The notes below the pieces were generated by a model. That model was given only the letters and a program-made list of their open reading frames with translations, searched no databases and was not told the DNA's origin. DNA of 64,000 bases from Ignavibacteriales bacterium (GTDB taxonomy: Bacteria > Bacteroidota > Ignavibacteria > Ignavibacteriales > Melioribacteraceae), in assembly GCA_026390795.1 (NCBI GenBank), contig JAPLFG010000003.1:1426001-1490000 (forward strand). The letters run 5' to 3'. The position numbers were made by a program, and so were the translations under genes. Each line of letters starts with the position of its first letter. Positions within the stretch are counted from its first letter, which is position 1. Shown piece after piece: positions 15,350 to 46,408 of the stretch.

Positions 15350-15907
15350 TTAATTATTATGGTAGAACTCAACTAATTTACAAACAGTTGTCCAATTTCT
15401 GGTTGTTGCTGGAATCCCGAACTCTTTCTCTACAAAATTGTTCGGAAAACCAAATCTTCCGTTTATCTCCACAGTTAAAGAATAAATTTCCTTTTTTTTG
15501 ATTTCGATTATTTCAACATCTTTCTTTTGGGATATATGCGGAAGTTTAGGATTCTTTTTCAATTCTTCTTTTAAAAAACTAACATACAATTTTGTGCTTA
15601 GTGCAGTTTTAATTTTATTGAACGGATTGAGTTTAACAATTGCTTCCACCTCTTCAATTGTTCTGATGAACACAAGCACATCATTGCCAAGAATTTGGTG
15701 AAGCGACTGTTCTAATATTTTTGTAATTGCACTTTCAATTTTGTCGGTAGATTCAAAATAAATATTTCCGCTTTGAATGTAAGTCCGGACATTTTCAAAT
15801 TTCAGAGATTCGAATAATTGTTTCAGGTCATTCATTTTGATTAAATTTTTACCGCCGACATTTATTCCGCGAAGCAAGGCAATATATTTTATCTTTTCAT
15901 TCTTCAT
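15350..15907 (-). CDS. DUF1697 family protein
   Basis: A 185-residue cytoplasmic protein of the DUF1697 family, recognised by IALLRGINVGGKNLIKMNDL at the start, then TYIQSGNIYFES, and a C-terminal ATTRNWTTVCKL. The function of the family is unknown. The ATG at 15907 overlaps the end of the upstream gene by 11 bases, which suggests translational coupling; a frame extension to a TTG at 15931 would add eight residues with no family similarity. No strong ribosome site precedes it, consistent with coupling. Confidence 0.85.
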   Translation of the reverse strand: MKNEKIKYIALLRGINVGGKNLIKMNDLKQLFESLKFENVRTYIQSGNIYFESTDKIESAITKILEQSLHQILGNDVLVFIRTIEEVEAIVKLNPFNKIKTALSTKLYVSFLKEELKKNPKLPHISQKKDVEIIEIKKKEIYSLTVEINGRFGFPNNFVEKEFGIPATTRNWTTVCKLVEFYHNN

Positions 15908-16763
15908 ACAGAGAAGGCTTGTTGTACTCAATATCGGTTACTTCCAATTTTATGTACTCAAAATCTCCGGATTTGAATTTCCACATTGCCATTCCTTTAT
16001 AAGGAATCAAAATATTATTTATTCTTTTGTAAGCTTCAATTGGAGTAGCCCATTTTTCTAATTTGAATTTGCCGTCTCCAACATCGCAATAACGGTCTGC
16101 GGTCATTGTAACAAGCGCACCTTTATCATTGAAAACAAAAATAGCCGAAGCGGTCACATCACCCCAAGTCATTATTGCTCTAGAAGAATTTTTATCTACC
16201 GTTTCCCAGTTTATGTAATAACTTAACGCCGCTGAAGGAAACCACATCATTTCATTTAAAAACCGGAGAAGAGTTCCCTGATCAATTTTATTCACTTTTG
16301 CGTCGGCAACAGTAACAATAGATGCCAGCTTAATCAGCATATTCCCTTTCCCCTCGAAGTATCTATCTCTTCCTGTTACGTAGAAAAACGGAGCCATTTT
16401 CATTTTCACATGCCAGATAAAAGCAGGTTCATTAACCGTATAGTATTCTTCCGCATCGAACGGCATCCAATCTTTATCTTCTTTCATTCTGAAAAAACCT
16501 TTTTGTTTTAACCGAACGCTAACAACCTTTTCTTTTCCGATCACCTCGGAATATCTCAGCCATCTTCTCACAGGCTCTGGAAGACTTTTTACATCCGCCT
16601 CTGTTACAATTTGTGGACGCACATCTTTTACTTTGTTAAACATCTCATTTGTTTCTTCGGCAACTTTCTTGCGAAGATTATTTTCACTTATTGTTTCAGC
16701 GATGAAAAAAGAGACTAACATTACAGCAAGAAACATTAGAATGAAGAAGATGGTTTTTCTCAT
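15897..16763 (-). CDS. DUF6544/DUF6920-like membrane-anchored protein
   Basis: A 288-residue protein with one N-terminal membrane helix (TIFFILMFLAVMLVSFFIA) and a large exported domain. The domain opens with SLPEPVRRWLRYSEVIG and has WMPFDAEEYY and FIWHVKMKMAPF, then GSLV-like and WATPIEAYK segments. This pattern is that of a family usually named DUF6544 or DUF6920, with no known function, often thought to be a lipid-binding beta-rich fold. Its 3' end overlaps the DUF1697 gene by 11 bases, so the two form an operon. The gap upstream (216 bp) holds only short repeats. Confidence 0.7.
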   Translation of the reverse strand: MRKTIFFILMFLAVMLVSFFIAETISENNLRKKVAEETNEMFNKVKDVRPQIVTEADVKSLPEPVRRWLRYSEVIGKEKVVSVRLKQKGFFRMKEDKDWMPFDAEEYYTVNEPAFIWHVKMKMAPFFYVTGRDRYFEGKGNMLIKLASIVTVADAKVNKIDQGTLLRFLNEMMWFPSAALSYYINWETVDKNSSRAIMTWGDVTASAIFVFNDKGALVTMTADRYCDVGDGKFKLEKWATPIEAYKRINNILIPYKGMAMWKFKSGDFEYIKLEVTDIEYNKPSLYEE

Positions 16764-16979: not shown

Positions 16980-17681
16980 TTAATTAAATTTGTACGTTTT
17001 CTCAATCCAGTACTGAACTTGCCTCCCTTCAATCTTTACCGGTTCCCATCTGGATTTATATGCGGCGTCAACCGTATTCATAAGGCAAGACTCATCACCG
17101 GATGTATTATAAATTACTTTGTGCTCTTTTACAAATCCATCGGTGCCGATTTTTAAAACTAAAATAATTGTTCCTTTAACTCCGTCCGTATTTTGCGGAA
17201 CAACTTCAAGAATCTGCCTCGGAACAAATGGAAGTGATTTGTAACCGATTCCATCACCCGAACCGTCTCCAATTCCCTTCCCCGTTCCGCTGCCGAACCC
17301 GCTACCGCTTCCCGATCCCATTCCGCTTCCGCCGGAAAGAGAATCTTTCGAGTCAATTAGATTTGTCACATTTCCAAAATCAATATCCGTTGGCTCTGAA
17401 ACAGGAACAGGTATTCCAGAAATTGTTTTTTTAGAAGAAAAATTTTTTCCCGTTCCCTCAGTTCCATTGCCTGATGAACCGCCACCGCCGACGATCTCTA
17501 CTTTGCCGATATTAACAGTAGTAAGTTTTACGATGTATGTGTTTTCGAAATAATAGCCGGTTGGTTCGGCAGTCGATTGCGGCAAGTAAAATAATATCAA
17601 CAGTATAGTCGTATGAAAGAAAATACTGATGATTATTCCGCTCGTAAAATTTTTACGGTATTTTTCTCGCCAAGTGTTCAT
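16980..17681 (-). CDS. TonB-like energy-transducer protein with Gly/Ser-rich linker
   Basis: A 233-residue inner-membrane-anchored protein. Residues 14-34 form one membrane helix (IIISIFFHTTILLILFYL). The middle (about 115-150) is a low-complexity Gly/Ser linker of GSGSG and GKGIGDGSGDGIG type, where classical TonB has a Pro-rich spacer. The C-terminal 80 residues (GTIILVLKIGTDGFVKEHKV ... EGRQVQYWIEKTYKF) match the TonB C-terminal domain, which touches the TonB box of outer-membrane receptors. No ExbB/ExbD genes are near. It is the last gene of the envelope cluster, 38 bp after the CsgG-like lipoprotein. It could serve the CarboxypepD-domain proteins next to it rather than classical nutrient receptors; that is inference. 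Confidence 0.78.
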   Translation of the reverse strand: MNTWREKYRKNFTSGIIISIFFHTTILLILFYLPQSTAEPTGYYFENTYIVKLTTVNIGKVEIVGGGGSSGNGTEGTGKNFSSKKTISGIPVPVSEPTDIDFGNVTNLIDSKDSLSGGSGMGSGSGSGFGSGTGKGIGDGSGDGIGYKSLPFVPRQILEVVPQNTDGVKGTIILVLKIGTDGFVKEHKVIYNTSGDESCLMNTVDAAYKSRWEPVKIEGRQVQYWIEKTYKFN

Positions 17682-17719
17682 TCAATCTTTCCGATATTCT
17701 CGTTATCTATCAAAATCTT

Positions 17720-18277
17720 TTAATGAGGCGATAACTTCCGTGCAATTTTATCTGCAATAAAAGCCGGTGTTACGGACCCGCTTGTATTCGATTGTGCCGG
17801 AGATTTAAACCATGCCCGACCTATAATTTCACCCGATTTAATTTCAACAACCTGGGCTTCACAATTATTAATGTAATTATTAAAACCCCCGGAACTACCG
17901 CCTGACCCCATTAATTCTGCGCTTGAAATACCCCGTTCCATTGTAATTTTTCCAATAATAATTGCGTCCACACTTTTTAGTTTGTTAATAGCGAGGGCGT
18001 AATTGTTAATGATTTCTTCCTCTTTCAAACCTTGTGCTGTAATAATTTTATTAACTTCAGCTCGATCCATAATCGTGTATCCGAAATCCGAAAGTTTGTC
18101 TGTCAATTCCTTCGAAAAGGTAACTCCGACCTCTTTATTGACACAATCAAATGGCAAGATGGCATAAGTAATGTTAGCTGAAAAACGATCCTTCTCTCTG
18201 ACCGAGTTATCAACTGATGTACATTGCAAAATAAGAATAAGAAAAAGTGCCGGATAGATATACTTGAACATTTTCAT
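17720..18277 (-). CDS. CsgG-like / TolB-N-like lipoprotein
   Basis: A 185-residue lipoprotein: hydrophobic signal then the lipobox LILQC (Cys19). The body has the alternating pattern of CsgG/TolB-N-like domains: ITYAILPFDC, then FSKELTDKLSDFGYTIMDRAEVNKII, then VDAIIIGKITMERG and CEAQVVEIKSGEIIGRAWF. In curli systems CsgG oligomers form an outer-membrane pore; smaller relatives like this one are common and of unknown role. A Gly/Ser loop (GSGGSSGGFNNY) interrupts the fold. The start has AGGAGGG seven bases upstream. It sits between the TonB-like gene and three CarboxypepD paralogues. Confidence 0.7.
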   Translation of the reverse strand: MKMFKYIYPALFLILILQCTSVDNSVREKDRFSANITYAILPFDCVNKEVGVTFSKELTDKLSDFGYTIMDRAEVNKIITAQGLKEEEIINNYALAINKLKSVDAIIIGKITMERGISSAELMGSGGSSGGFNNYINNCEAQVVEIKSGEIIGRAWFKSPAQSNTSGSVTPAFIADKIARKLSPH

Positions 18278-18341
18278 TTCACACCCTCCTGATTAAAATG
18301 ATAAATTGTTGTTTCTCTCGTTACTCCTTTTATACAGTGAA

Positions 18342-19391
18342 TTATTTCTCTTCCGGTTTCCAAAAGCGCGGAAGCATTGTGGCGATTCCCTCGTGAGCGA
18401 ATGCACCGCGCAATATAAATTCATCCGGATTAATTAAAAAACCGGATGGGTCGAATTCAGTGATTCCGGCTGTTAGACAGATTCTTGAAGAAGTTTGCTT
18501 TCCTAAATCCCAATATTTTACCAACAGGCAATCGTTTACATTAAGGAAATATTTCTGATGAACAGAATCCACTTGAATAATCTCATTCGCTCTTTTTACC
18601 AATTGGCCATCGACGTAGAGTTCAAATCCCTCATCTCTGAATTTATAATTGTTTATAGCAAGTGATGATAATAATTGAGCAAGCGAACCGAGATAAACAT
18701 CTTTTCGGGCGGATAAATATTCTTCGGCAGAGTCGGCGGTTGTAGCAGTAAGTTCAGTAAATGAAGGATAGATCTGATAACTGGTCCCCATGTTGTTTAT
18801 ATCATAAGTAAAATTTTTGAGAACACATTCAATTTTATATCCAAGCGCATTGTTCCGAATGATAATTGGTTCTCTTGCTGTAGCCGTAAGTTTTGAACCT
18901 TCTTCTTTGAAATCAATTTGATACGGATTTTTGATAACACATTTCTTAGCGTAAATATTGCTGCCGAACAACATTTTCTTAAAAATCTCAAGCTGGTCCA
19001 ACCACTTTTGAGGAATCTCACCTTGAACTTCAATCTGTTTGAATTCGTAAGTAGTTCTTTCCAGACTGAAGTTAACAACCTTATTCTGACTCTTAGTTAG
19101 ATCAACGGCGATAACATTAGACTCGTAACCAACCATTGAAGCGACGAGAATATAATTTCCGCCGGGAATCTTGCCAATTTTATAAATACCATTTAAATCT
19201 GTTGTCGCGCCAATCGTGGTTTGCGATAGAAAAACATTTACATACGTCAGCGGTTCATTTGTCTTTGCGTCCGTAACTTTTCCTTCAAGCGTATAAAAAT
19301 TTTGGGAGAAGGATTCGGAAGCAAAAAGTAAAAGAAAAATGAAGAATGCTTTCGAAAAATCTCTAAATAAAAATTTTATCGGCTGATTCAT
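18342..19391 (-). CDS. CarboxypepD_reg-like domain protein, paralogue A
   Basis: A 349-residue exported protein with signal peptide (AFFIFLLLFASESFSQ) and one carboxypeptidase-regulatory-like beta-sandwich (about 33-115: GKVTDAKTNEPLTYVNVFLS, GIYKIGKIPGGNYILVASMVG). The remaining 230 residues are a second, unnamed domain seen in many Bacteroidota exported proteins: FKKMLFGSNIYAKKC, then PIIIRNNALGYKIECVL, then DVYLGSLAQLLSSL and a C-terminal GFLINPDEFILRGAFAHEG. It has no barrel, so it is not itself a TonB receptor. It is one of three tandem paralogues; it is more divergent than the other two. Two Cys are kept in all three. Function unknown, likely cell surface or periplasm. Confidence 0.8.
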   Translation of the reverse strand: MNQPIKFLFRDFSKAFFIFLLLFASESFSQNFYTLEGKVTDAKTNEPLTYVNVFLSQTTIGATTDLNGIYKIGKIPGGNYILVASMVGYESNVIAVDLTKSQNKVVNFSLERTTYEFKQIEVQGEIPQKWLDQLEIFKKMLFGSNIYAKKCVIKNPYQIDFKEEGSKLTATAREPIIIRNNALGYKIECVLKNFTYDINNMGTSYQIYPSFTELTATTADSAEEYLSARKDVYLGSLAQLLSSLAINNYKFRDEGFELYVDGQLVKRANEIIQVDSVHQKYFLNVNDCLLVKYWDLGKQTSSRICLTAGITEFDPSGFLINPDEFILRGAFAHEGIATMLPRFWKPEEK

Positions 19392-19481
19392 AATTGCCTC
19401 AAAATATCACTATGCCAATTAAGTTCTCTATGAATGATCTTTGTTTATCAAATGTTTTAAAATCGAATATCATTCGTCAAT

Positions 19482-20561
19482 TTATTCCAACCATTCCAGA
19501 TAAGAGATATCCATTGGAAGCAGATCGGCAACGCCATGTTTAGCAAATTCACCCGCCACCTGGATAGACATTGGATCGATAGCATAACCGCCGGGATCTA
19601 AATAAGAAAACCCAGACGGTACAGGTATGAAAGATTGTTCGTCAGTCAATAAATTTTTTACGTACAAAAAATCTCTGAATTTGAGATAAAATAACCCGCT
19701 TTCACTATCCATGTAAAAAAATTTTTCGCCTGGGTTTACCAATTTATATTCATTATTGATCTTTGCATTATATGAGTTTGTGCTATAATCCCAGCCTATT
19801 CCTTTCGCGTGCATTAAATACAATAAGAATCTGCTTAGTGAACTTTTAAATGCAAGTTTCCTGTTTTCAATCCACTTTTCTTTTTGATCGTCATTTATCG
19901 GAGCCATCTCTGTAAACCTTGGATTGAATTCATAATTAAGTTCGCCTCTTGTATCATTGCATAAAAAATGGATCAGAAGACACGCCACTTTATATCCTAG
20001 AGCATTATTGATAACAACAATCGGTTTAGAGCAGACAGCATTAACATAAGGTTCATACTTTTCAGTGAAAGTAATATCGTCTATGTTTTCTATTTGACAC
20101 TCATCACTGAAATCTGTACGCCCAAGAAAATATTTTTTGAAAATTTCTTTGTATTCTTTTTGCTTCTTTAAATACGCGGCGTATTCGTCCGATTGTAATG
20201 AAACCGTAATTGCGTTCAATTCTATTGGCTGATTTTCCAACGAAAAATTCTTTTGAATAATAGAACTTTCGTGGATCTCAATATTTTGGTGAATCGGTTT
20301 GTACCCGACCATAGAAACTACAATTATGAAATGACCGATCGGTAATTTTGCTATTTTATAATTACCGCTCTTATCGCTTGACGTGCCTGTTGTTGTGCCG
20401 GATAAATAAACACTTACGCCGGGCAGTCCTTCTTTTGTGATTGAATCAATAACTCTACCTGAGATAGATGTTAATTCTGCAGTTTGCGATAACCGGATTG
20501 AACTCGTTGAAATTATTATGAGAAAGAGATAAAAGAAATTTAAAGGTAATTTTTTAATCAT
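19482..20561 (-). CDS. CarboxypepD_reg-like domain protein, paralogue B
   Basis: A 359-residue exported protein of the same two-domain layout as its neighbours. A signal peptide is followed by the regulatory beta-sandwich (about 30-115: ISGRVIDSITKEGLPGVSVY, GNYKIAKLPIGHFIIVVSMV) and the second domain with FKKYFLGRTDFSDECQIEN, then PIVVINNALGYKVACLLI and a C-terminal YAIDPMSIQVAGEFAKHGVA. It is closest to paralogue C, so the pair arose by a recent duplication. A clean AGGAGG lies upstream of the ATG. The conserved Cys pair (in DECQIEN and VACLL) may form a disulfide; this copy has an extra Cys in HFLCND. Function unknown. Confidence 0.8.
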   Translation of the reverse strand: MIKKLPLNFFYLFLIIISTSSIRLSQTAELTSISGRVIDSITKEGLPGVSVYLSGTTTGTSSDKSGNYKIAKLPIGHFIIVVSMVGYKPIHQNIEIHESSIIQKNFSLENQPIELNAITVSLQSDEYAAYLKKQKEYKEIFKKYFLGRTDFSDECQIENIDDITFTEKYEPYVNAVCSKPIVVINNALGYKVACLLIHFLCNDTRGELNYEFNPRFTEMAPINDDQKEKWIENRKLAFKSSLSRFLLYLMHAKGIGWDYSTNSYNAKINNEYKLVNPGEKFFYMDSESGLFYLKFRDFLYVKNLLTDEQSFIPVPSGFSYLDPGGYAIDPMSIQVAGEFAKHGVADLLPMDISYLEWLE

Positions 20562-20724
20562 AAATTCCTCCTATTACGAATAATTCTCTCGCTTTGATTT
20601 GCACGTTTCAAGAATTCTAAATCATACTTAACAAACGACATATTTTGTGTTTGATTTTATACAGATCGCAAAAAGATATAACAATATTCTAAAGATTGAA
20701 ACTCCTCAAAAAAAACTTAACACT

Positions 20725-21816
20725 CTATTCCACCCTTTCAATGTATGAATTATCGATAGGTAACATGTTGGCAAGTCCATGTTTGGCAAAAACGCCAGAT
20801 ACCTGCAAAGATCTCGGATCGATTGGATATCCATCCTTACCGATATATGCGGTACCGAAGGGCAAATAGACAAACGATTGCTCGTCTGTTAAAAAATTAT
20901 TTACAAATAAGAATCCTTTGAATTTGAGAAAGTGTAACCCGCTTAATGTATCAATGAACACGATCTTGTCATTGCTGTCTACCAGACTTGAAAGTGAGAT
21001 TCCTTTTGGAAGCTTAGTCGCGCCCGTTACAGCATATCCGTAATTATTCAAAAGCACATTTGACTGCAGCCGACTTAGCATAAAACGTCTAAGCGAGCTG
21101 TTGAACGCTGATTTTCTGTTTTCCTTCCATTTTAGATTTTGATTTTCATCTTTCGGAATTAACTCTGTAAATTTTGGATAAAACTCACAATTGACTCCCT
21201 CTTGATTAGTATTAAATATAAAAGTAAGAAGCACACATTCTATTCTATAGCCAAGAGCTTTGTTGATTACAATAATTGGATTTGGGCATTCAGCTTGAAT
21301 ATTTGGCTCGAACTTTTTACTGAAAATGATCTCCTCAATATTTTCGATCTGGCATTCGTTGCTCAATTCGGTTTGACCTAGAAAATACTTTTTAAAAATA
21401 TCCCGGTAATTTTTCTGCTCTCTTAAGAGATCATCATACACATCAGACTGATCTTGAACGACAATTGCGTTCATCTCTATCGGTTTATTTTCAAGAAAAA
21501 AATTCTTTAGAATATTTGAGCTGCCGCTAATTTCCAAATTTTGAACGAGCGGTTTATACCCGATCATCGAAACAACAATTATATATTTGCCTGCCGGAAT
21601 TTTACCGATCTTATAATTACCGTTTTTATCGCTCGATATACCAATTGTAGTTCCGGATAAATAAACACTTACACCCGGCAGTGTTTCTTTAGTAACGGAA
21701 TCGAATATTTTTCCGGATATTGTACCAAGGTCGGTGGATTGAGATAAACCGGTAGAGCTTGTGACCGTTACAATGATAATGATATAAACAAAAATAGAAT
21801 GTAGTTTCTTTATCAT
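20725..21816 (-). CDS. CarboxypepD_reg-like domain protein, paralogue C
   Basis: A 363-residue exported protein, the first of the three paralogues in transcription order. It has a signal peptide, the regulatory sandwich (ISGKIFDSVTKETLPGVSVY, NYKIGKIPAGKYIIVVSMIG) and the second domain (FKKYFLGQTELSNECQIEN, PIIVINKALGYRIECVLL, FNSSLRRFMLSRL, LFVNNFLTDEQSFVYLPFG, YPIDPRSLQVSGVFAKHGLA). It lies 47 bp after the DUF4249-like gene. In Bacteroidota, DUF4249 lipoproteins are often paired with CarboxypepD/TonB-receptor proteins, and here the receptor partner seems replaced by these barrel-less forms. Function unknown. Confidence 0.8.
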   Translation of the reverse strand: MIKKLHSIFVYIIIIVTVTSSTGLSQSTDLGTISGKIFDSVTKETLPGVSVYLSGTTIGISSDKNGNYKIGKIPAGKYIIVVSMIGYKPLVQNLEISGSSNILKNFFLENKPIEMNAIVVQDQSDVYDDLLREQKNYRDIFKKYFLGQTELSNECQIENIEEIIFSKKFEPNIQAECPNPIIVINKALGYRIECVLLTFIFNTNQEGVNCEFYPKFTELIPKDENQNLKWKENRKSAFNSSLRRFMLSRLQSNVLLNNYGYAVTGATKLPKGISLSSLVDSNDKIVFIDTLSGLHFLKFKGFLFVNNFLTDEQSFVYLPFGTAYIGKDGYPIDPRSLQVSGVFAKHGLANMLPIDNSYIERVE

Positions 21817-21863
21817 GATTTTCTTTCTTAACAGATAGATTTGTATCCGTTACAGCTTATTTA

Positions 21864-22856
21864 TCAATAATATCTATATCCAAATGATTCTATATAGCCC
21901 GGAGTTATATATATGCCAACTTGTAAAGAGCTAAGCGTTCCGAAGATACCAAATCCGCCGTCGATATTGGAATAATTGGGTTGAACAACTCTTACAGAGA
22001 ATTCTTCATTAAAAACTTTGTTCGATGCGTAATAAGTTGCTAAATCTTTATCGAGCGCGAATAAACGGAATACCATACAATCGATTATATAATTTTCTTT
22101 ATGCGGATCTCCATTTGAAATTTCCCGAAGAGTTTTTTCAACGGCAAGAGCATCAAAGTAGTATTCAGTTATATTTTTCGCTATTGATGGGTATTTCGGA
22201 TAATCTTCATTAGAGCCGGCTATATACCTGGTGGGGACCTCCTTCTCGTATACTGTTTTCACACCGCTCTCAATCTTAAAATATTTTATTGTAAGTCTGG
22301 GAACAAAGTACATGTTTTCCATATTATTTCTCATATCTAATCGATTCCATTTAAGAACCAAAGTGCCCTCGTAGACGGTCGAAGGAAGCGGAAACAAAAA
22401 ACTGTTTGCATCCAGAAAATCAGCGGATAAAGAATAAGTTGTTGAATTTGATTTCAGAACTTTGCCATCCGGCATTATGGCTTCAATACTTATTTTACTG
22501 TTCGATTCCGGTTTGAATCCTTTGATATAATAATAATTACCCGGAGTGTTGTGTGCGGAATCGCTGGGTCGTGTGACTGAGGTATCCCTAAAGAAAAAAA
22601 TTTCTCCCGTGCGCAGGTAAGTTAATTTTATTTTCGCGCCTTTTATGAAAGGATCGATTGTATTTGGTATTTGACGGATTCCCTCAGCATCGTAAGAACG
22701 CGTAATTGTTGCAACCTGAATTGAAGTATCGCCCCTTATAACACAGTTTAAAGCGTAAACATCATGGAAAGCCGTTTTTGGATTGACACTGTCATCACAA
22801 GAATAAATAGAGACTGTAAGCAAGAAGATGAATAATATTGAACCGATGTTTTTCAT
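21864..22856 (-). CDS. DUF4249-like lipoprotein
   Basis: A 330-residue lipoprotein with a signal ending in the lipobox SIYSC (Cys20) followed by DDS, an outer-membrane-type sorting context. The body begins with FHDVYALNCVIRGDTSIQVATI and IKGAKIKLTYLRTGEIFFF, the pattern of DUF4249 proteins, which are surface or periplasmic lipoproteins usually paired with TonB-dependent receptors. An AAGG lies just before the ATG. Only 15 bp separate it from the GWxTD gene, so they are cotranscribed. The match to DUF4249 is by pattern and is good at the N-terminus, weaker at the C-terminus. Confidence 0.7.
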   Translation of the reverse strand: MKNIGSILFIFLLTVSIYSCDDSVNPKTAFHDVYALNCVIRGDTSIQVATITRSYDAEGIRQIPNTIDPFIKGAKIKLTYLRTGEIFFFRDTSVTRPSDSAHNTPGNYYYIKGFKPESNSKISIEAIMPDGKVLKSNSTTYSLSADFLDANSFLFPLPSTVYEGTLVLKWNRLDMRNNMENMYFVPRLTIKYFKIESGVKTVYEKEVPTRYIAGSNEDYPKYPSIAKNITEYYFDALAVEKTLREISNGDPHKENYIIDCMVFRLFALDKDLATYYASNKVFNEEFSVRVVQPNYSNIDGGFGIFGTLSSLQVGIYITPGYIESFGYRYY

Positions 22857-22871
22857 AAAGGACCTTAAAAT

Positions 22872-25055
22872 TTACTGCCAGTTTATTTCTGTTTGACTGC
22901 TCACTTCCTTTCCTGTTGCATTCTCTTTTATAGAAACCGTAATTAAATATTCTCCGGGTTCGTACTTGCTCATATCAAGCTGAAGATACATTTGCGGATC
23001 TTTCTCTTGTGTCTGATACTTTGATGTAAGTGCTACTTTCTTTCCTTCTTTATCCAAACCAACTACACTTAAAATTGAATTTAAAACTCCGCCTTCTTCC
23101 TTTTTCTGAATTGTTATCTTCTGTTCAAAGTCGGTTAGATTATTAGTGCTCGGTTTTAGATTGTAGATTTCGTAATAGAGATAAAGTTTATCTTCTTTGC
23201 CGAATGTTTTTGCTGGATTTGGAAGAACCGAGATCTCCTTTCGTTTTATGCTACCGATAATTTCTCTACTGGTTTCAACATTTGTAGCCAGAACAACATC
23301 GCCCAAAGCCAATTCATTACTGCTAAAGTTGCGTACGTTATATTTACCGTGATAAGAGGTTACTCCCTTATCTTTCTTCCTTATCATCTCCAATGCAAGA
23401 TTGCCGGTTTGTGGATATAGAGTCATTTCTAAAGTATTAACCAAATATTCTTGGGATTGATTTAATGATGTGCAAGTTTTTCTATAATCAAATTTCTTGT
23501 TAAAGTTGTTATCAAACATGAAAAGCCCGACATCATAACCATCAGCAAATTTTTCTTTTGATGTTGTAGAATCTAAAAAGTTAACACCATAAGCAACAAA
23601 AACATCTGTTTGAGTTTTGTTAGTTGATGCGAACTGATAAGCTTTGTAGCTTAAATCAAAAACCGGTCCTTCGAACTTGGGAATATATTCGTCTGGCTTA
23701 GTCTGTCTTAAGCTAATTACTTCATCGTGCGTATTCATCGGCACAATTGCCGTCCATGGTTGAGCAAACATATAATTATTGATCCTTGTGGGATCGATAA
23801 ATGCTAAAACCTTATTCCCATAATCCCAAACTTCTGTTGGAGGTTGGCCATAGAATTCTTCTACCAATTGAAAAAGATAACGATACTTGTCTAAAGGTTG
23901 TCCATACCGGATTAAAACCTCGCCGCGGTCGGTTTTCCAACCGACAATCTTATAATGAACGTTACTGAAAAATATATTTGCGTATGCAACACGATAATAG
24001 TGTTCAAGTAAACGAACATTTTCTTTGGACAGATTTAACGGGTTGCTTTTATCCCAATACTTTTCGATATACTTTTCCAACTGCGACCGACTCAAAGTAT
24101 TTAATTCATCATCAAATTTGGGCTTCAAGATTAATTTTGCAGAATTAAAAGTAAAATTTTCTTTTTCTTCAAAACCCATTAATGAGATAGCGTTTTCAAA
24201 CTCTTCGGAGGATTTATCGAACTGTTTCGTCATATAGTAAAGCATTGCTAAATAGAGATGTGCGTCTTTGCTCAGATTTTTATTTTGTATGGAGTTCCAA
24301 ATAGGAATAGCTTTTTCCGGCGTATTATTATAAATGTGAAGTTTACTTAATTCACAATAACTTTTTTCTAAGTTCGGATCCTGTTTTATTGCTTCAAATA
24401 AATATTTTTCCGCCGCATCAAAACCTTCCTTCGCATAACCTTCATATTCTAAGACGACAAAATTACCACGAGTGTTATCAAACTCATTTTGAGTTTCATA
24501 AAGAAGAGAACTTCTTCCCCGAAACATGGTTGCTCTCTGAACCGGGTTAAGCGCTCTGTTTTTCACTGTCTTAACTTCCCCCCTGTGATACTTTAAAAAT
24601 TCTTCTACATTTAGTCTACCAAGATTATAGAGTGCTTCTGCATTTTTAGGATCAAGCTCAAGAATTTTTTTGTATTGATTAAAAGCACGTTCACGGTCAA
24701 TTTGATTTAATCTACTTACATAAAAAAGTTCTTCGCGAACGGATGCCAGCAATAATGGATATTCCACATTATTCGGATCAAGCATAATTGCCCGATCTAA
24801 GTATTCTGCTGCTTCATTTAAATTAGCATCAGTCTTTTTACGGGATATAAGTTTTGCCAACTCAAAATATGATTGTGCATCATTCTCTTGTTTAACTGAT
24901 TCTTTTAAAAGAGTAATTGCCGAAATAGTGTCTTTCTTCTGTAATGCTTCGAGAGCTTTTAAATATGGCTCTGTTTTTGTCGTATCGGTTTGTGCTGTTG
25001 ATGAGAGATGAGAAGTTAAAAATAATGCGGTTAAAATTATGACAAATGTTTTCAT
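22872..25055 (-). CDS. TPR-repeat GWxTD-domain exported protein
   Basis: A 727-residue exported protein. After a signal peptide (FLTSHLSSTAQ) come TPR helices (about 25-300), for example AAEYLDRAIMLDPNNVEYPL, YKKILELDPKNAEALYNLGR and AEKYLFEAIKQDPNLEKSY. The second part (about 345-500) has VGWKTDRGEVLIRYGQP, the motif that names the GWxTD domain, then PTEVWDYGNKVLAF. A beta-rich C-terminus follows (YLQLDMSKYEPGEYLITVSI). GWxTD proteins occur in Bacteroidota, Ignavibacteriota and Acidobacteriota; their function is not known. It leads the envelope cluster and is separated from clpB by 148 bp. AGGGG precedes the start. Confidence 0.85.
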   Translation of the reverse strand: MKTFVIILTALFLTSHLSSTAQTDTTKTEPYLKALEALQKKDTISAITLLKESVKQENDAQSYFELAKLISRKKTDANLNEAAEYLDRAIMLDPNNVEYPLLLASVREELFYVSRLNQIDRERAFNQYKKILELDPKNAEALYNLGRLNVEEFLKYHRGEVKTVKNRALNPVQRATMFRGRSSLLYETQNEFDNTRGNFVVLEYEGYAKEGFDAAEKYLFEAIKQDPNLEKSYCELSKLHIYNNTPEKAIPIWNSIQNKNLSKDAHLYLAMLYYMTKQFDKSSEEFENAISLMGFEEKENFTFNSAKLILKPKFDDELNTLSRSQLEKYIEKYWDKSNPLNLSKENVRLLEHYYRVAYANIFFSNVHYKIVGWKTDRGEVLIRYGQPLDKYRYLFQLVEEFYGQPPTEVWDYGNKVLAFIDPTRINNYMFAQPWTAIVPMNTHDEVISLRQTKPDEYIPKFEGPVFDLSYKAYQFASTNKTQTDVFVAYGVNFLDSTTSKEKFADGYDVGLFMFDNNFNKKFDYRKTCTSLNQSQEYLVNTLEMTLYPQTGNLALEMIRKKDKGVTSYHGKYNVRNFSSNELALGDVVLATNVETSREIIGSIKRKEISVLPNPAKTFGKEDKLYLYYEIYNLKPSTNNLTDFEQKITIQKKEEGGVLNSILSVVGLDKEGKKVALTSKYQTQEKDPQMYLQLDMSKYEPGEYLITVSIKENATGKEVSSQTEINWQ

Positions 25056-25105: not shown

Positions 25106-25128
25106 GCGGTGCAATAAAAAATGCACCG
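25106..25128 (-). terminator. weak terminator after clpB
   Basis: On the minus strand a 7-bp stem (CGGTGCA with TGCACCG) with an 8-base T-rich loop is followed by CTTTGTTT. It lies about 75 bases after the clpB stop and upstream of the GWxTD gene. It is the best candidate for ending the clpB transcript, though the tail is imperfect. Confidence 0.5.
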
Positions 25129-25203: not shown

Positions 25204-27822
25204 TTATTTTTTTGAGAATTCTAACTTCCCTGCTCCTGGGTAACGGACTACAATTGTATCGCCCGATTCATATTTATTCATCAGCAATTCAGAGGAAAGA
25301 GGATTGACAATAAATTTTTGAATCGTACGTTTCAATGGACGGGCACCGTATGTTGCATCATAACCATGCTGAAGAAGAAAATCGATTGAGTCTTCGTCAA
25401 TTTCAAACCCGATATTTTTTTCTACGAGCATCTTCCCCACTCTCTGCAGTTGAATTGCTATAATTTGTTTTAACTCACTCTTAAGCAATGGTTTGAATAA
25501 AATTACTTCATCAATACGATTTAAAAATTCCGGACGAATTGTTTGTCTGAGCAATTGCGTAAGACTAGAGCGTAATTCACCCATTATATTTTCAAAATTT
25601 GTTTCGTCCATCGTCATCAATTTTTCTTGGATTAAATGCGAGCCAAGGTTAGATGTCATTATTATAATTGTATTTTTGAAGTCAACCGTTCTCCCCTGGT
25701 TATCTGTAAGCCGTCCGTCATCTAAAACTTGCAGTAATATATTAAAAACATCCGGATGAGCTTTTTCAATTTCATCAAGCAGCACAACAGAATATGGCTT
25801 ACGCCGAACGGCTTCTGTTAATTGACCCCCTTCATCATATCCGACATATCCCGGAGGCGCTCCAATTAAACGCGATACGGAGAACTTTTCCATATACTCG
25901 CTCATATCAATTCGTATCATTGCGTGTTCATCGTTGAATAAAAATTCCGCAAGCGCACGTGCAAGTTCGGTCTTCCCCACTCCGGTTGTGCCGATAAAAA
26001 TAAATGAACCTATGGGACGGTGTGCGTCCTGCAATCCCGCACGAGATCTTCTGATTGCGTTTGCTACGGCGGCAACTGCATCGTCCTGCCCGATCACTCT
26101 TTTGTGAAGTTCTTCTTCAAGTCTAATTAGTTTTGCGCGCTCGCTCTCAAGCATCCGGCTAACCGGAATTCCAGTCCATTTGGCAACTACTTCCGCAACG
26201 TCTTCCGCATCAACTTCTTCTTTCAGCATCTTGGTATTTCTTTGAATCGCATTAAGTTCTTCAGATTCTTTTTTCATGTTGCGTTCAAGATCATTTATCA
26301 CTCCGTAACGAATTTCCGCAACCTTACCAAGATTTCCTTCACGCTCAAATCGTTCGGCATCTGATTTAGCTTTTTCAATATCGCTTTTCATCGATCTGAT
26401 TTTTTGAATCTTCTCTCTCTCAAGCTGCCAATGACTCTTCAGCCTATTGCGTTCTTCTTCAAGCTCACTTAATTCTTTCTGAAGTTCTTCAAGCCGTAAC
26501 GCTGAGTCAGAATCTTTTTCTCGTTTTAATGCTTCTCTTTCGATTTCAAGTTGTTTGACTTTTCTTTCAACTGCATCAAGTTCTTCCGGCATCGAATCAA
26601 TTTCAATTCTTAACTTCGATGCAGATTCATCAATCAAATCAATTGCTTTGTCGGGAAGAAAGCGATCTGTTATATAACGGTTTGATAATTGTACTGCCGC
26701 CACAATTGCGCCGTCCGTAATTCGCACGCCATGATGAACTTCGTACCTTTCTTTGAGTCCACGTAAAATAGAAATTGAATCTTCTTCATTTGGTTCGGAA
26801 ACAAGTACAGGCTGAAATCTTCTTTCGAGCGCCGCATCTTTTTCAATATATTTTCTGTATTCATCAAGTGTCGTAGCACCGATAGCGTGTAATTCACCTC
26901 TAGCCAAAGCTGGTTTTAAAATGTTTGCGGCATCCATAGAGCCCTCTGCCCTTCCCGCTCCCACAAGAAGATGAAGTTCATCAATAAATAAAATTATTTC
27001 TCCCGCAGATTCTTGGACCTCTTTTACAACAGCCTTCACTCGCTCTTCGAACTGTCCGCGGAATTGTGTTCCTGCAACTAACGCTCCCATATCAAGTGCG
27101 ATAATTCTTTTTGTCTTCAATGTTTCGGGAACATCGCCGCTGATTATTCTGTGAGCGATCCCTTCCGCGATTGCAGTTTTACCAACTCCCGGTTCGCCGA
27201 TTAATACCGGATTATTTTTAGTTCGCCTTGAAAGAACCTGAAGCACTCGCCGGATTTCTTCATCTCGTCCTATCACAGGATCAAGTTTATTCGACCGCGC
27301 GAGTTCGTTTAAATCCCTTCCGTATTTTTGAAGCGCTTGATAAGTATCTTCCGGATTTTGTGAAGTAACGCGTTGGTTGCCTCGTATCTCTTTCAGTGCT
27401 GAGAGTATAATATTTTTGTCAATTCCATTTTCATTTAAAAGTTTTCCAGCCGCACTTTTGTCTCCACTAAGTGCCAGCAGCAGATGTTCATTTGAAACAT
27501 ATTCATCTTTTAATGTTTTTGTTTCTTCGGAAGATTTGTCAAATAATTTTGATGTGTTGATTGAAAGTTGTTGATTCCCAATTCCACTCCCCGAGACTTT
27601 CGGTAGCCGTTCGAGCAACTCACCAATTTTAATTCTCATTTGATTTATGTTCGCGCCGGATTTCTGAATTATAGAAACCGCAACGTTTGATTGATCTTGC
27701 AGAATTGCCGCCAATAAATGTTCCGGCTCAACAATTTGATTATTGTAATTCTGCGCAATCTCAATTGCGTTCTTTACAGTTTCCTGAGCCTTTACCGTGA
27801 ATTTGTTAAAATTAAATTCCAT
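25204..27822 (-). CDS. clpB: ATP-dependent disaggregase ClpB
   Basis: The hexameric AAA+ chaperone that, with DnaK, pulls apart aggregated proteins after heat stress. All parts are present in 872 residues: the paired Clp N-terminal repeats (about 10-145), the first ATPase domain with Walker [14 protein letters not shown] and Walker [11 protein letters not shown], the coiled-coil middle domain (about 400-530, very rich in Glu/Lys) that distinguishes ClpB from ClpA/ClpC, and the second ATPase domain with [14 protein letters not shown] and [11 protein letters not shown]. It is divergent from mnmE. GAGG lies eight bases upstream of the ATG. No CIRCE element (the inverted repeat bound by HrcA) is seen in its upstream region. 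Confidence 0.98.
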
Positions 27823-32230: not shown

Positions 32231-33352
32231 ATGATAACTCCATCCGAAAAATTTTTACGATACTTACCAAGCAGAGACGTTGTATTTGTTTTAGGCGCAG
32301 GTGCTTCACATCCCGATGGTGTTCCTCTCCAGAGAGATATGTTGCCGATGATTATTTCAGGCGGAATTGAAGAGATTGAAAACTCGGAAATAGGTAAGAT
32401 TGTTATAGAGTTTATTAAAGATAATTTTGAGTTTAACAGTGCGACTAATCAATACCCGCAGCTTGAGGCAGTTTTCGGCTTTATCGATTATTTTATTCAA
32501 CAGAACGAAAGCTTGAATGCAAAATACTCTAACGAAAAAATAAGAGACATTAAAGAATACTTAATTAAACTGATTCATTACATTGTTAATCTTCAAACCG
32601 ACAAACGAAGTCACTACTACCATCTTTTTTGGAAAACTATTCAAAAAAACAATTCGAACATTTCAATTATCACTTTAAATTACGACACTCTTCTTGAGCA
32701 AGCTTTTGATTTTTTATTTAAAAGTCACGGTTACATTGATTATTGCATTCCATTAATGAACTATGAACGATTGCCCGAAATGAACAATTTCAATTTTTGG
32801 ATAAATCCGCGAGAACCGGTTTCAATTAGCGAGAATGAAAATCCGATTCCGATTAAAATTGTGAAAGTACACGGCAGTCTTAACTGGAAATATTGCAATT
32901 GCTGCAACCAAACTTTACTTACACCTTGGGACCGATCGATTGACTTGAAAAAGGGAAAGTTTCTAGGTTATACATTTCCGGAAAAGGTGGAATACGAGTT
33001 TGTTTGTCCGCTGGATGGAACGGAGTTTCGCACGCTTATTATGCCTCCGACATATCTGAAAACCATTCATCATCCCATTATTTCTCAATTAATGAGCGAG
33101 GCGTCGAGAGAAATACGCGCAACGAAAAAAATTGTTTTCATTGGGTATTCTCTTTCCAGCTCGGATGTTCATATAAAAGCGTTATTTAAAAAGCAGATTA
33201 CATCCGATAAAGAAATTATAGTAGTAAATCCAAAACGTAAAGAATCTTTAGAGCTTAATTATAAATCACTCACAAATAATGTCCGATTTATCTACTCATC
33301 ATTCGAAGATTTTGTAAATGATGAAAATCAGTTGAATTCGATCCTTTCATAA
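32231..33352 (+). CDS. SIR2-like NAD-binding domain protein
   Basis: A 373-residue protein with a SIR2-like Rossmann fold. The NAD loop is VLGAGASHPDG (residues 20-30), the Asn/Asp pair is in TLNYD (Asn150, Asp152), the active-site His is in KVHGSLNW (His214) and the closing strand is VFIGYSLSSSDVHI (303-315). A Cys set (Cys222, 224, 225 and 259) sits where sirtuins hold a zinc, but spacing is unusual. The family includes deacylases and NAD-degrading effectors of antiphage defence. No recognised defence partner sits beside it. It lies 158 bp after rsmG, where parA would be in many genomes. GGTG lies upstream of the ATG. Whether it deacylates proteins or depletes NAD cannot be told. Confidence 0.82.
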   Translation: MITPSEKFLRYLPSRDVVFVLGAGASHPDGVPLQRDMLPMIISGGIEEIENSEIGKIVIEFIKDNFEFNSATNQYPQLEAVFGFIDYFIQQNESLNAKYSNEKIRDIKEYLIKLIHYIVNLQTDKRSHYYHLFWKTIQKNNSNISIITLNYDTLLEQAFDFLFKSHGYIDYCIPLMNYERLPEMNNFNFWINPREPVSISENENPIPIKIVKVHGSLNWKYCNCCNQTLLTPWDRSIDLKKGKFLGYTFPEKVEYEFVCPLDGTEFRTLIMPPTYLKTIHHPIISQLMSEASREIRATKKIVFIGYSLSSSDVHIKALFKKQITSDKEIIVVNPKRKESLELNYKSLTNNVRFIYSSFEDFVNDENQLNSILS

Positions 33353-43996: not shown

Positions 43997-46408
43997 ATGA
44001 AACTCCACACAGCATTCCTATTACTTTTGTTAACAGCGTTTAACTTTTTATCTGCTCAAAAAGAATCAGAAAATTTTAAAATATCCGGTGCCGTTGCCGA
44101 TCTCTTTACGAACAAACCGTTAGTCGGCGCTTCTGTTATTATTATTTCCAAATCATCCGGCACTCAACTCAAGGGAACTAAAGCCGACGAGAAAGGTAAC
44201 TTTGAGATAGACAAAATTCCAGAAAGCAAAGTGCGCGTAAAATTTTCAATGATCGGTTATCAAACTCAAATAATTGATTCTGTCGCCCTTGATCAGTCAT
44301 CAAGACTCGGGCTTATAAAGCTTATGCCTACCACAATTGAACTGACGGAGATAGTTGTCAAATCGGTGAAGCCGATGATTGAATTCCATGCCGACAAACA
44401 GGTAATTAATATGGACCGGCTTCCGGGCAACTCGGGCTCTCTTACAGATGCGTTAAAAAATTCAGGACTGGTGGAAGTTGATCCGGCGACAAATAAAGTA
44501 TCGGTACGTGGACAGAGTTTAAAAATTCAAATGGACGGACATGAATACCCGATGCCCGCCGAGATGCTTGGACAACTTCCGGCATCCATGATTGATCAGG
44601 TTGAAGTTATTCTCGCGCCAGGCGCCAAAGAGAGCGCAGAAGGTGGGACTTACATTCTGAATCTCATTACCAAAAAAGAAACCTTCAGTAATTTCAGCGG
44701 GATGATATCTTTAAGTCTAACTTCAAATAAAAATTCATTTGGAGGCACTTATTTTAATTATAAAGCGGATAAACTGAATGTCTTCGGTCAGGCATACGGC
44801 AGTTATTTCGGCAACAGCATTTCAAATACAAACGAAAGATATGTTTACAGCAGCCCGAGCATGTATTATCAAAACACCGCCGGGGAAGGAAAAAACAAAT
44901 ATTACGGAGGTTATTTCAAATTCGGGTTCGATTATGATTTCGACGCAAACAATTCCGCCACTTTTTTCGTCAATTATAACGGCTACAAATACAAGTCCGA
45001 AAACAACGGAAATTCGTTTGTAAATAATGATAATAATGTTTTTGAATACAGCTACAATAGATTAAACAATAATAACGGGACAAATAATGATCTTTCTTTC
45101 TATGGATTTTATAAGAAGAAATTCGAGACTAAAGGAAATGAATTAACTTTTGACGCGATGTATACAATTTACGGCAATCCTACAGACGCCAAGATGAATC
45201 TGGGATACAGCAACAAAATAAATATGCCGCAGCTGCAGAACAGCAACACAGATGTTAATGCAAGAACGTTAATATTGAAAACCGACTATGTGCTGCCAAT
45301 TGATAAAAACAAACTGGAAGCCGGATACAATTTTACATACCGCACAAGAAATAACGATTACAACGTGCTTGATTATTCGTATCGGTTTTCCGAATGGCAG
45401 GATAGTTTGCAATTGAGCAATCTCTTCCGGTATAAGGAAGCTATTAACGCTGTTTATGCTTCTTATGCTCAGAAGTTAGGCGATTTCGATGCAAAGTTCG
45501 GATTGCGAGCTGAAAACCTTTCAACTGAAGGAAATCAGATTACTCAGAATATAAATTTTAAAGAGAATTTTTTGAGCTTCTTCCCGAATCTGAATCTTTC
45601 TTATAAATTGAGCGATATGTTTCAGCTTGGGTTTAATGCTTTCAGAAGGGTGACGTATCCGCAGATTTACTATATCAATCCTTTCCGTCAGTATCAGGGA
45701 CCGAATAGCTTCTCTGCTGGAAATCCAAAAATAAAACCGAACTATGTAAATTCCTACGCGTTGAATTTGTCGCAATATATTAGTCTTTATTATACATATA
45801 CAACCGGCAACATTACTTATGCAACATCCACGGAAAACGACAGCGTTCTGATTTCAAGTTACATCAATCTTAACAATCAGGATACATATGGCTTTTCACT
45901 TACTCTCCCTTATTATAATACTCCTATGATGCCGTTTCATCTTCCAGATTTTATTAGCTCCTGGTATGTTTCTTTCAATTACCGTTATTCAAAGCAGACG
46001 GGGCAGTATTTATCCGAAGATCTCTCGCTGACAGATAAAAGCTACACCCTCAACACCTATCTAGGAATAAAACTACCGTTTGATGTAGACGCAAACATAT
46101 CTCTATACTACACACCTAAAACAACAAACCGGCGGATGATAAGAAGCGAGATGAAATACCTATCGATCTATTTAAGCAAGAACTTCATGGATCGTAAGAT
46201 TAGAATTTATCTTATCGCAAGCGATTTATTAAATGCACAAGGGGGAAGCAACGAAACTATCGGCGGCAGCTATTATACCAGAAATACATATAAAGTACTT
46301 AACAGCCGCACTATAGGTATCGGCATTTCATATTTGTTTAACGATTATAAAGAGAGGCGCGATAGAACCATAGATGATGGCAGAGACGCAGGCAACCGAG
46401 GGTTTTAA
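43997..46408 (+). CDS. TonB-dependent receptor-like outer membrane protein (CarboxypepD_reg plus OMP_b-brl_3 barrel)
   Basis: An 803-residue outer-membrane protein. A signal peptide (LLLLLTAFNFLSAQ) is followed by a CarboxypepD_reg-like sandwich (about 30-105: SGAVADLFTNKPLVGASVII, GNFEIDKIPESKVRVKFSMI), a plug domain (about 120-225: DALKNSGLVEVDPATNKVSV, MDGHEYPMPAEMLGQL) and a long barrel full of Asn, Tyr and aromatic strands (LNVFGQAYGSYFGNS, YYGGYFKFGFDYDF). No TonB box could be set apart with certainty. The layout fits the SusC-like/OMP_b-brl_3 family, which imports large ligands or is involved in surface transport. A GGGGGA ribosome site precedes the start. Ligand unknown. Confidence 0.9.
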   Translation: MKLHTAFLLLLLTAFNFLSAQKESENFKISGAVADLFTNKPLVGASVIIISKSSGTQLKGTKADEKGNFEIDKIPESKVRVKFSMIGYQTQIIDSVALDQSSRLGLIKLMPTTIELTEIVVKSVKPMIEFHADKQVINMDRLPGNSGSLTDALKNSGLVEVDPATNKVSVRGQSLKIQMDGHEYPMPAEMLGQLPASMIDQVEVILAPGAKESAEGGTYILNLITKKETFSNFSGMISLSLTSNKNSFGGTYFNYKADKLNVFGQAYGSYFGNSISNTNERYVYSSPSMYYQNTAGEGKNKYYGGYFKFGFDYDFDANNSATFFVNYNGYKYKSENNGNSFVNNDNNVFEYSYNRLNNNNGTNNDLSFYGFYKKKFETKGNELTFDAMYTIYGNPTDAKMNLGYSNKINMPQLQNSNTDVNARTLILKTDYVLPIDKNKLEAGYNFTYRTRNNDYNVLDYSYRFSEWQDSLQLSNLFRYKEAINAVYASYAQKLGDFDAKFGLRAENLSTEGNQITQNINFKENFLSFFPNLNLSYKLSDMFQLGFNAFRRVTYPQIYYINPFRQYQGPNSFSAGNPKIKPNYVNSYALNLSQYISLYYTYTTGNITYATSTENDSVLISSYINLNNQDTYGFSLTLPYYNTPMMPFHLPDFISSWYVSFNYRYSKQTGQYLSEDLSLTDKSYTLNTYLGIKLPFDVDANISLYYTPKTTNRRMIRSEMKYLSIYLSKNFMDRKIRIYLIASDLLNAQGGSNETIGGSYYTRNTYKVLNSRTIGIGISYLFNDYKERRDRTIDDGRDAGNRGF

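Follow-up and report, generated by a model that had tools for sequence, protein, structure and literature searches.

Gene content of the cluster

The region studied here is a cluster of seven genes at positions 16980-25055 of the window, i.e., the whole stretch of 64,000 nucleotides that was analysed, from the genome of an Ignavibacteriales bacterium. A first-pass annotation had described the genes as lying on one strand, separated by 15-163 bp, and encoding only exported or membrane-anchored proteins. The list of open reading frames (ORFs) agreed with this layout: all seven ORFs are on the minus strand, with intergenic gaps of 15, 47, 163, 90, 64, and 38 bp in the order of transcription. The order runs from a GWxTD gene through a DUF4249 gene, three genes for CarboxypepD proteins (CPD1, CPD2, and CPD3), and a CsgG-like gene to a gene for a TonB-like protein. 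The domain labels given earlier were recovered for all seven proteins by Pfam, each above its cut-off, and their exported or membrane-anchored nature was likewise supported, with export signals called by eye and no predictor. Pfam found no TonB-dependent receptor (TBDR) among the seven proteins, as had been noted, and the last gene is indeed the one coding for the TonB-like protein with a Gly-rich linker.

The three CPDs, CPD1 (20725..21816; 363 amino acids, aa), CPD2 (19482..20561; 359 aa), and CPD3 (18342..19391; 349 aa), are paralogues, CPD2 being 54-55% and CPD3 34% identical to CPD1. All three contain CarbopepD_reg_2 at 78-84 bits against a cut-off of 32.2, corresponding to the SusC-type N-terminal extension (NTE). 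This domain makes up only about the first third of each protein; the rest, around 230 residues, is a common domain, which the first-pass annotation had not mentioned. No Pfam family was common to 30 members of this C-terminal domain, and no convincing sequence match was found in the PDB (best E 1.3). The PDB fold lists were filled by the NTE, so that the C-terminal part was barely probed and no new fold is claimed for it. In the model of CPD1 (pLDDT 87) the C-terminal part mixes helices and strands, while the NTE superposes on that of the SusC protein BT3090 (9hfj; Z 12.6, root-mean-square deviation 1.8, 80 aligned residues). Transthyretin-like domains of carboxypeptidases match the CPD1 NTE as well as 9hfj or better. 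A less confident stretch of the model follows the NTE and holds the segment IEMNAIVVQ; CPD2 has IELNAITVS. In the corresponding Ton-box-like register, TBDRs of the same genome read VEMQAIVVQ, INMNEIVV, and VKMNDVVV, and in Bt1763 the Ton box VDEVVV also comes after the NTE (excerpt of PMC7782687). The CPDs have the NTE fold in common with SusCD-type transporters (BT1763, BT3090), and the Ton-box-like segment after it is a candidate for a second common feature. Unlike these, CPD1-3, with just 349-363 aa, gave no Pfam match to Plug or barrel, and the domain of about 230 residues follows instead. Judging by their sequences, CPD1-3 are not receptors and would consist of an NTE, a TonB-box-like segment, and the undescribed domain; three proteins of the cluster seem to have the part by which a receptor docks to TonB, without the membrane barrel. 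Full-length CPDs were restricted to this cluster within the genome, the remaining 33 of 36 matches being to the NTE part of ORFs of at least 713 aa. Of 296 genomes in a sample of the phylum, at least 89 had the CPD C-terminal domain, a lower bound because no more than nine candidates per genome were scored.

The TonB-like protein (16980..17681; 233 aa) has an N-terminal transmembrane segment, the Gly-rich linker, and a TonB_C domain (PF03544; 28.0 bits, cut-off 24.6). The transmembrane segment carries the motif SxxxH, as SIFFH, known from E. coli TonB as S16/H20. By eye, the same motif was also recognized in the TonB of this genome that adjoins ExbB/ExbD-like genes (L233). Nine TonB_C matches were recorded in the genome, and a profile of the TonB subfamily, which includes the window protein, retrieved this protein alone from it at E <= 1e-10. 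HasB and FusB are system-specific TonB paralogues. Like them, the window TonB homologue appears dedicated to one system; unlike them, it has barrel-less neighbours and its receptor would be encoded elsewhere.

The GWxTD protein (22872..25055; 727 aa) begins with an N-terminal signal (by eye), continues with a TPR array at about 29-300 and the GWxTD domain at about 305-412, and ends with an Ig-like beta-sandwich at about 465-727. Both GWxTD_dom (PF20094; 33.2 bits, cut-off 26.9) and TIGR04514 (69 bits, cut-off 28) were above their thresholds, as expected for the GWxTD family; the TPR and Ig-like parts and the gene linkage to TonB set the protein apart from it. An AlphaFold2 model reached a pLDDT of 84, with TPRs filling the list of fold matches. 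In the literature library searched we found no paper naming GWxTD and, judged by titles and abstracts, none describing this cluster.

The CsgG-like gene (17720..18277) encodes a short predicted lipoprotein of 185 aa, which matches PF03783 barely above the cut-off (23.5 bits against 20.8) over profile positions 30-160 of 210. Curli systems employ the partners csgA/B/E/F, and none of these was among the Pfam matches of the cluster. The possibility that the CsgG-like gene is a core member was rejected, since a single-sequence profile matched the window only, out of the window and loci L005, L006, and L089-L207. Genes of 149 aa in a similar position in L090 (5825-6274) and L092 (11558-12007) are IS200-like transposase genes unrelated to it, the former identified by Pfam and the latter by its similarity to L090.

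Recurrence in related genomes

Recurrence was followed in 57 genomes, the own genome (G000) included, and the expected values given here assume uniform placement. Long GWxTD genes, i.e., search rows with E below about 1e-60 after exclusion of weaker rows, numbered 29, and 11 of them were found within 5 kb of a CPD. Conversely, 13 of 37 matches to the CPD C-terminal domain were within 5 kb of a long GWxTD gene (expected 0.13), and half of the 18 TonB-subfamily matches were within the same distance of a CPD or GWxTD gene (9/18, expected 0.16). GWxTD, CPD, and TonB were present together in six of the 57 genomes (G000, G001, G003, G006, G019, and G023). A second set of 79 named GWxTD loci had a TonB gene within 5 kb in 14 cases and a CPD in six; at least six of these 14 loci are contigs of genomes already in the 57-genome set. 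Ten of the 14 TonB genes are on the GWxTD strand at a spacing of -13 to +28 bp. Among the named genomes the closest matches were Melioribacter-like Ignavibacteria. Furthermore, CPD and GWxTD are joined in a single ORF in L095 (1045 aa), L096 (1026 aa), and L256 (1027 aa), the last with an adjoining TonB gene; weaker fusions in L250 and L251 are without the Pfam GWxTD domain. The association of GWxTD, CPD, and TonB genes is well supported.

Two genes outside the module served as syntenic anchors, both on the minus strand: a clpB-like gene (25204..27822; presumably clpB, named from the sequence) 148 bp upstream of the GWxTD gene, and a DUF6544 gene (15897..16763) 216 bp downstream of the cluster. 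Within the genus, the clpB side proved to be a variable slot. Genome G001 has GWxTD, CPD3, and TonB between clpB and DUF6544, the slot in G003 holds TonB, GWxTD, and three CPDs, G005 has CPD3 only, and G006 has CPD3 in the slot and the others on another contig. Conservation of gene order in close relatives, proposed earlier as a check on the cluster, was hence found in part: the GWxTD, CPD, and TonB genes show a tendency to remain neighbours, while order and copy number vary, as do the DUF4249 and CsgG-like genes, neither of which is a constant member.

Several other arrangements were observed around the same families. Clusters of GWxTD and TonB in three close relatives contain proteins of 257-266 aa with an NTE and a TBDR Plug and no barrel (L090:15793-16566, L091:4608-5399, L092:10247-11047); no such protein was found in the window cluster. 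Distant genomes encode large NTE-CPD-(MG2)-Plug proteins (L253:3649-7182, L254:2548-6204, L257:4836-8453, L248:4839-7589) with the Plug near the C-terminus, where the approximately 105-108 residues that follow leave no room for a barrel. One ORF (L255:3850-5979) combines a histone-deacetylase-like domain with an NTE and a CPD domain. Six further GWxTD genes that have neither CPD nor TonB beside them (L005:10703-12877, L108:9790-11940, L117:5080-7266, L118:4611-6746, L122:4583-6733, and L145:7678-9828) are flanked by a CBM9/DUF5916 protein on the opposite strand, and DUF5916 genes were likewise seen after the cluster in L092 and next to CPD3 in L100.

The orphan DUF4249 lipoprotein and its probable receptor

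The DUF4249 lipoprotein (21864..22856; 330 aa) belongs to a family of TBDR partners, or lids, as proposed in PMC11003636. Its Pfam match is barely above the cut-off (PF14054; 30.2 bits against 28.5), and its Cys20 is invariant in 11 aligned sequences. Three TBDRs of the genome clearly fall into the DUF4249 subfamily, which they match along their length, and after each of them comes a DUF4249 gene. The window protein is the fourth DUF4249 and an orphan lid: no TBDR is encoded among the cluster proteins, whereas one adjoins each of the other three lid genes. The BT2172-BT2173 pair of Bacteroides thetaiotaomicron (excerpt of PMC11003636) shares the DUF4249 lipoprotein with the window. As in that pair, DUF4249 directly follows an NTE-bearing TBDR at the three other places in this genome and in the clusters of two relatives; the window differs in having no TBDR and in that its DUF4249 gene is surrounded by GWxTD, CPD, and TonB genes. 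G011 (L091) and G006 (L090) have a TBDR gene and a DUF4249 gene within the GWxTD/TonB cluster. Of the 79 named loci, 18 have a TBDR no more than 2 kb from GWxTD; most of these are from Rhodothermales or unplaced Bacteroidota. When nine of these loci were read ORF by ORF, a protein of about 300 aa was found between TBDR and GWxTD in eight, an overlapping frame having been picked in L182. This protein matched DUF4249 weakly (E <= 0.006) in seven of the eight tested, one of them above the curated cut-off. Given the order TBDR, DUF4249-like, GWxTD in Rhodothermales and other Bacteroidota, the DUF4249-GWxTD pair of the window resembles such an operon minus its TBDR. PMC11003636 cites a preprint by Price et al. 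from 2023 on lids.

The first-pass annotation had suggested a surface or ligand-handling system using a distant receptor, for example the one at 43997. The distant receptor is consistent with the orphan DUF4249 and the three paired TBDRs, but the particular receptor was not supported. The first profile of the TBDR subfamily contained the three TBDRs of the genome itself and was therefore repeated without them; the three paired TBDRs then scored 675-1078 bits, two unpaired ones 220 and 184 bits, and 43997 only 35 bits (44 bits with the own TBDRs included), the poorest score among the listed ORFs of this genome. Its barrel is OMP_b-brl_3. It is outside the DUF4249-type subfamily, for which reason it was rejected as a partner. 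The nearest relative of the window DUF4249 is that at C3:932938, with 51% identity, and the two are sisters in the 11-sequence tree (support 0.90). The TBDR beside the latter, C3:933918-936146, shares 70% identity with the one in the G011 cluster. On these sequence relationships, G000:C3:933918-936146 is the most likely receptor partner.

Proposed role and alternative explanations

The cluster is real and its core recurs in relatives, and it is a variant of systems of TonB and TBDR with lid rather than a separate kind. The reading we favour, with about even confidence, is that it supplies the TonB side of a TonB-dependent uptake system of the lid type, together with an orphan lid, the receptor being encoded elsewhere. 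The TonB-like protein would be anchored in the inner membrane and span the periplasm, energised by ExbB/ExbD encoded elsewhere (candidates are in L233), and could engage CPD1-3 and the distant TBDR via their NTE/Ton-box parts. The new C-terminal domain of the CPDs would take the place of the plug and barrel of a receptor, the GWxTD/TPR/Ig protein may be the outer-membrane scaffold of the CPDs, and the DUF4249 lipoprotein would cap the TBDR, most probably the one at C3:933918-936146. A more specific proposal, which we put forward as an unlikely one, is that TonB acts on barrel-less NTE/Ton-box partners, so that the Ton motor would pull a GWxTD-held assembly in the periplasm or attached to the outer membrane and not a receptor plug. 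Such partners would be CPD1-3 and, in relatives, also the 257-266-aa NTE-Plug and the large NTE-CPD-MG2-Plug proteins.

A number of observations weigh against the uptake reading. In the 57 genomes, 24 of 37 CPD matches and 18 of 29 GWxTD genes lack the respective other family within 5 kb. Among 37 hand-picked phylum regions, selected with a leaning to long ORFs, CPD occurred together with GWxTD or TonB in four, L252 being perhaps a fifth; ORF picking yielded no CPD in L252, L266, and L272. The Ton-box-like match of the CPDs covers few residues and is degenerate; in that register the three DUF4249-type TBDRs themselves show less typical sequences, IQMKTIE, IQFQAIE, and IQMKTVE. After removal of six loci as duplicate contigs, SxxxH was counted in seven of 16 TonB-subfamily members and AxxxH in one, while all eight short ones (197-216 aa) had neither; the His of the motif is missing from eight of the 16, which argues against a plain motor role. 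Out of ten members submitted to Pfam, two passed the TonB_C cut-off, seven were below it, and one gave no match. Neither ExbB nor ExbD was detected by Pfam in the seven cluster proteins, and the CsgG-like gene was without a counterpart in the loci searched. A custom DUF4249 profile matched none of the Rhodothermales-type lipoproteins. As for the receptor, the unpaired TBDRs C3:1350432 (220 bits) and C3:772769 (184 bits) are also candidate partners; no DUF4249 was found in the 13-16 kb surrounding either of them.

It is somewhat unlikely that the cluster proteins serve a lid-type TBDR as accessories in the periplasm, engaged in ligand binding or processing, in which case the TonB-like protein would drive an ordinary TBDR and the CPDs would never touch TonB, their NTE being a common Ig-like module. 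NTE-like folds are in fact widespread, with matches in many unrelated proteins, several of which outscore the SusC NTE, and DUF4249 is itself a proposed TBDR partner (PMC11003636). The CPDs are moreover spread far wider than the association, with few of them near GWxTD or TonB. However, they retain the TonB-box-like segment in the TBDR register, and within the 57-genome set they were present in nine of ten genomes with the TonB subfamily (above 200 bits, a threshold set post hoc) as opposed to 11 of the 47 others (kinship uncorrected).

Improbable in our judgement is a sensing or signalling cluster, in which NTE proteins and TonB would relay the state of the outer membrane inward in the manner of STN domains or BlaR1-type sensors. 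A gene for a BlaR1-type M56 peptidase lies between the CPD genes of one close relative (L089:6567-8063), but beside CPDs such a gene was identified in this locus only, Pfam showed no M56, sigma/anti-sigma, or kinase domain in the seven proteins, and the NTE is held apart from STN signalling in the excerpt of PMC7782687. The variable content of the clpB slot, with CPD3 alone in G005 and the rest on another contig in G006, the IS200-like transposase genes in the clusters L090 and L092, and the inconstancy of the CsgG-like and DUF4249 genes would all fit a chance aggregate of envelope genes downstream of clpB. Still, the same families come together again at different sites and in further genomes, in some cases fused, and we consider chance very improbable.

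If the cluster is indeed the TonB side and lid of an uptake system, the GWxTD domain and the undescribed CPD domain would gain a functional context in TonB-dependent envelope transport. The SusC NTE may give specificity among TonB orthologues (excerpt of PMC7782687), and free-standing NTE/Ton-box-like proteins encoded beside their own TonB gene offer a natural test of its role.

Recent import of the cluster was considered; GC and GC3 of its genes are like those of the neighbours, so that composition shows no sign of it. Between clpB and the GWxTD gene the site scan marked a terminator-like hairpin (25107..25128, minus strand); such sites were not enriched over shuffles (three found, 8.8 expected) and are thus not above chance. 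Elsewhere in the window, a SIR2-family-like protein at 32231-33352, directly after an rsmG-like gene (both named by eye), is a possible defence gene.

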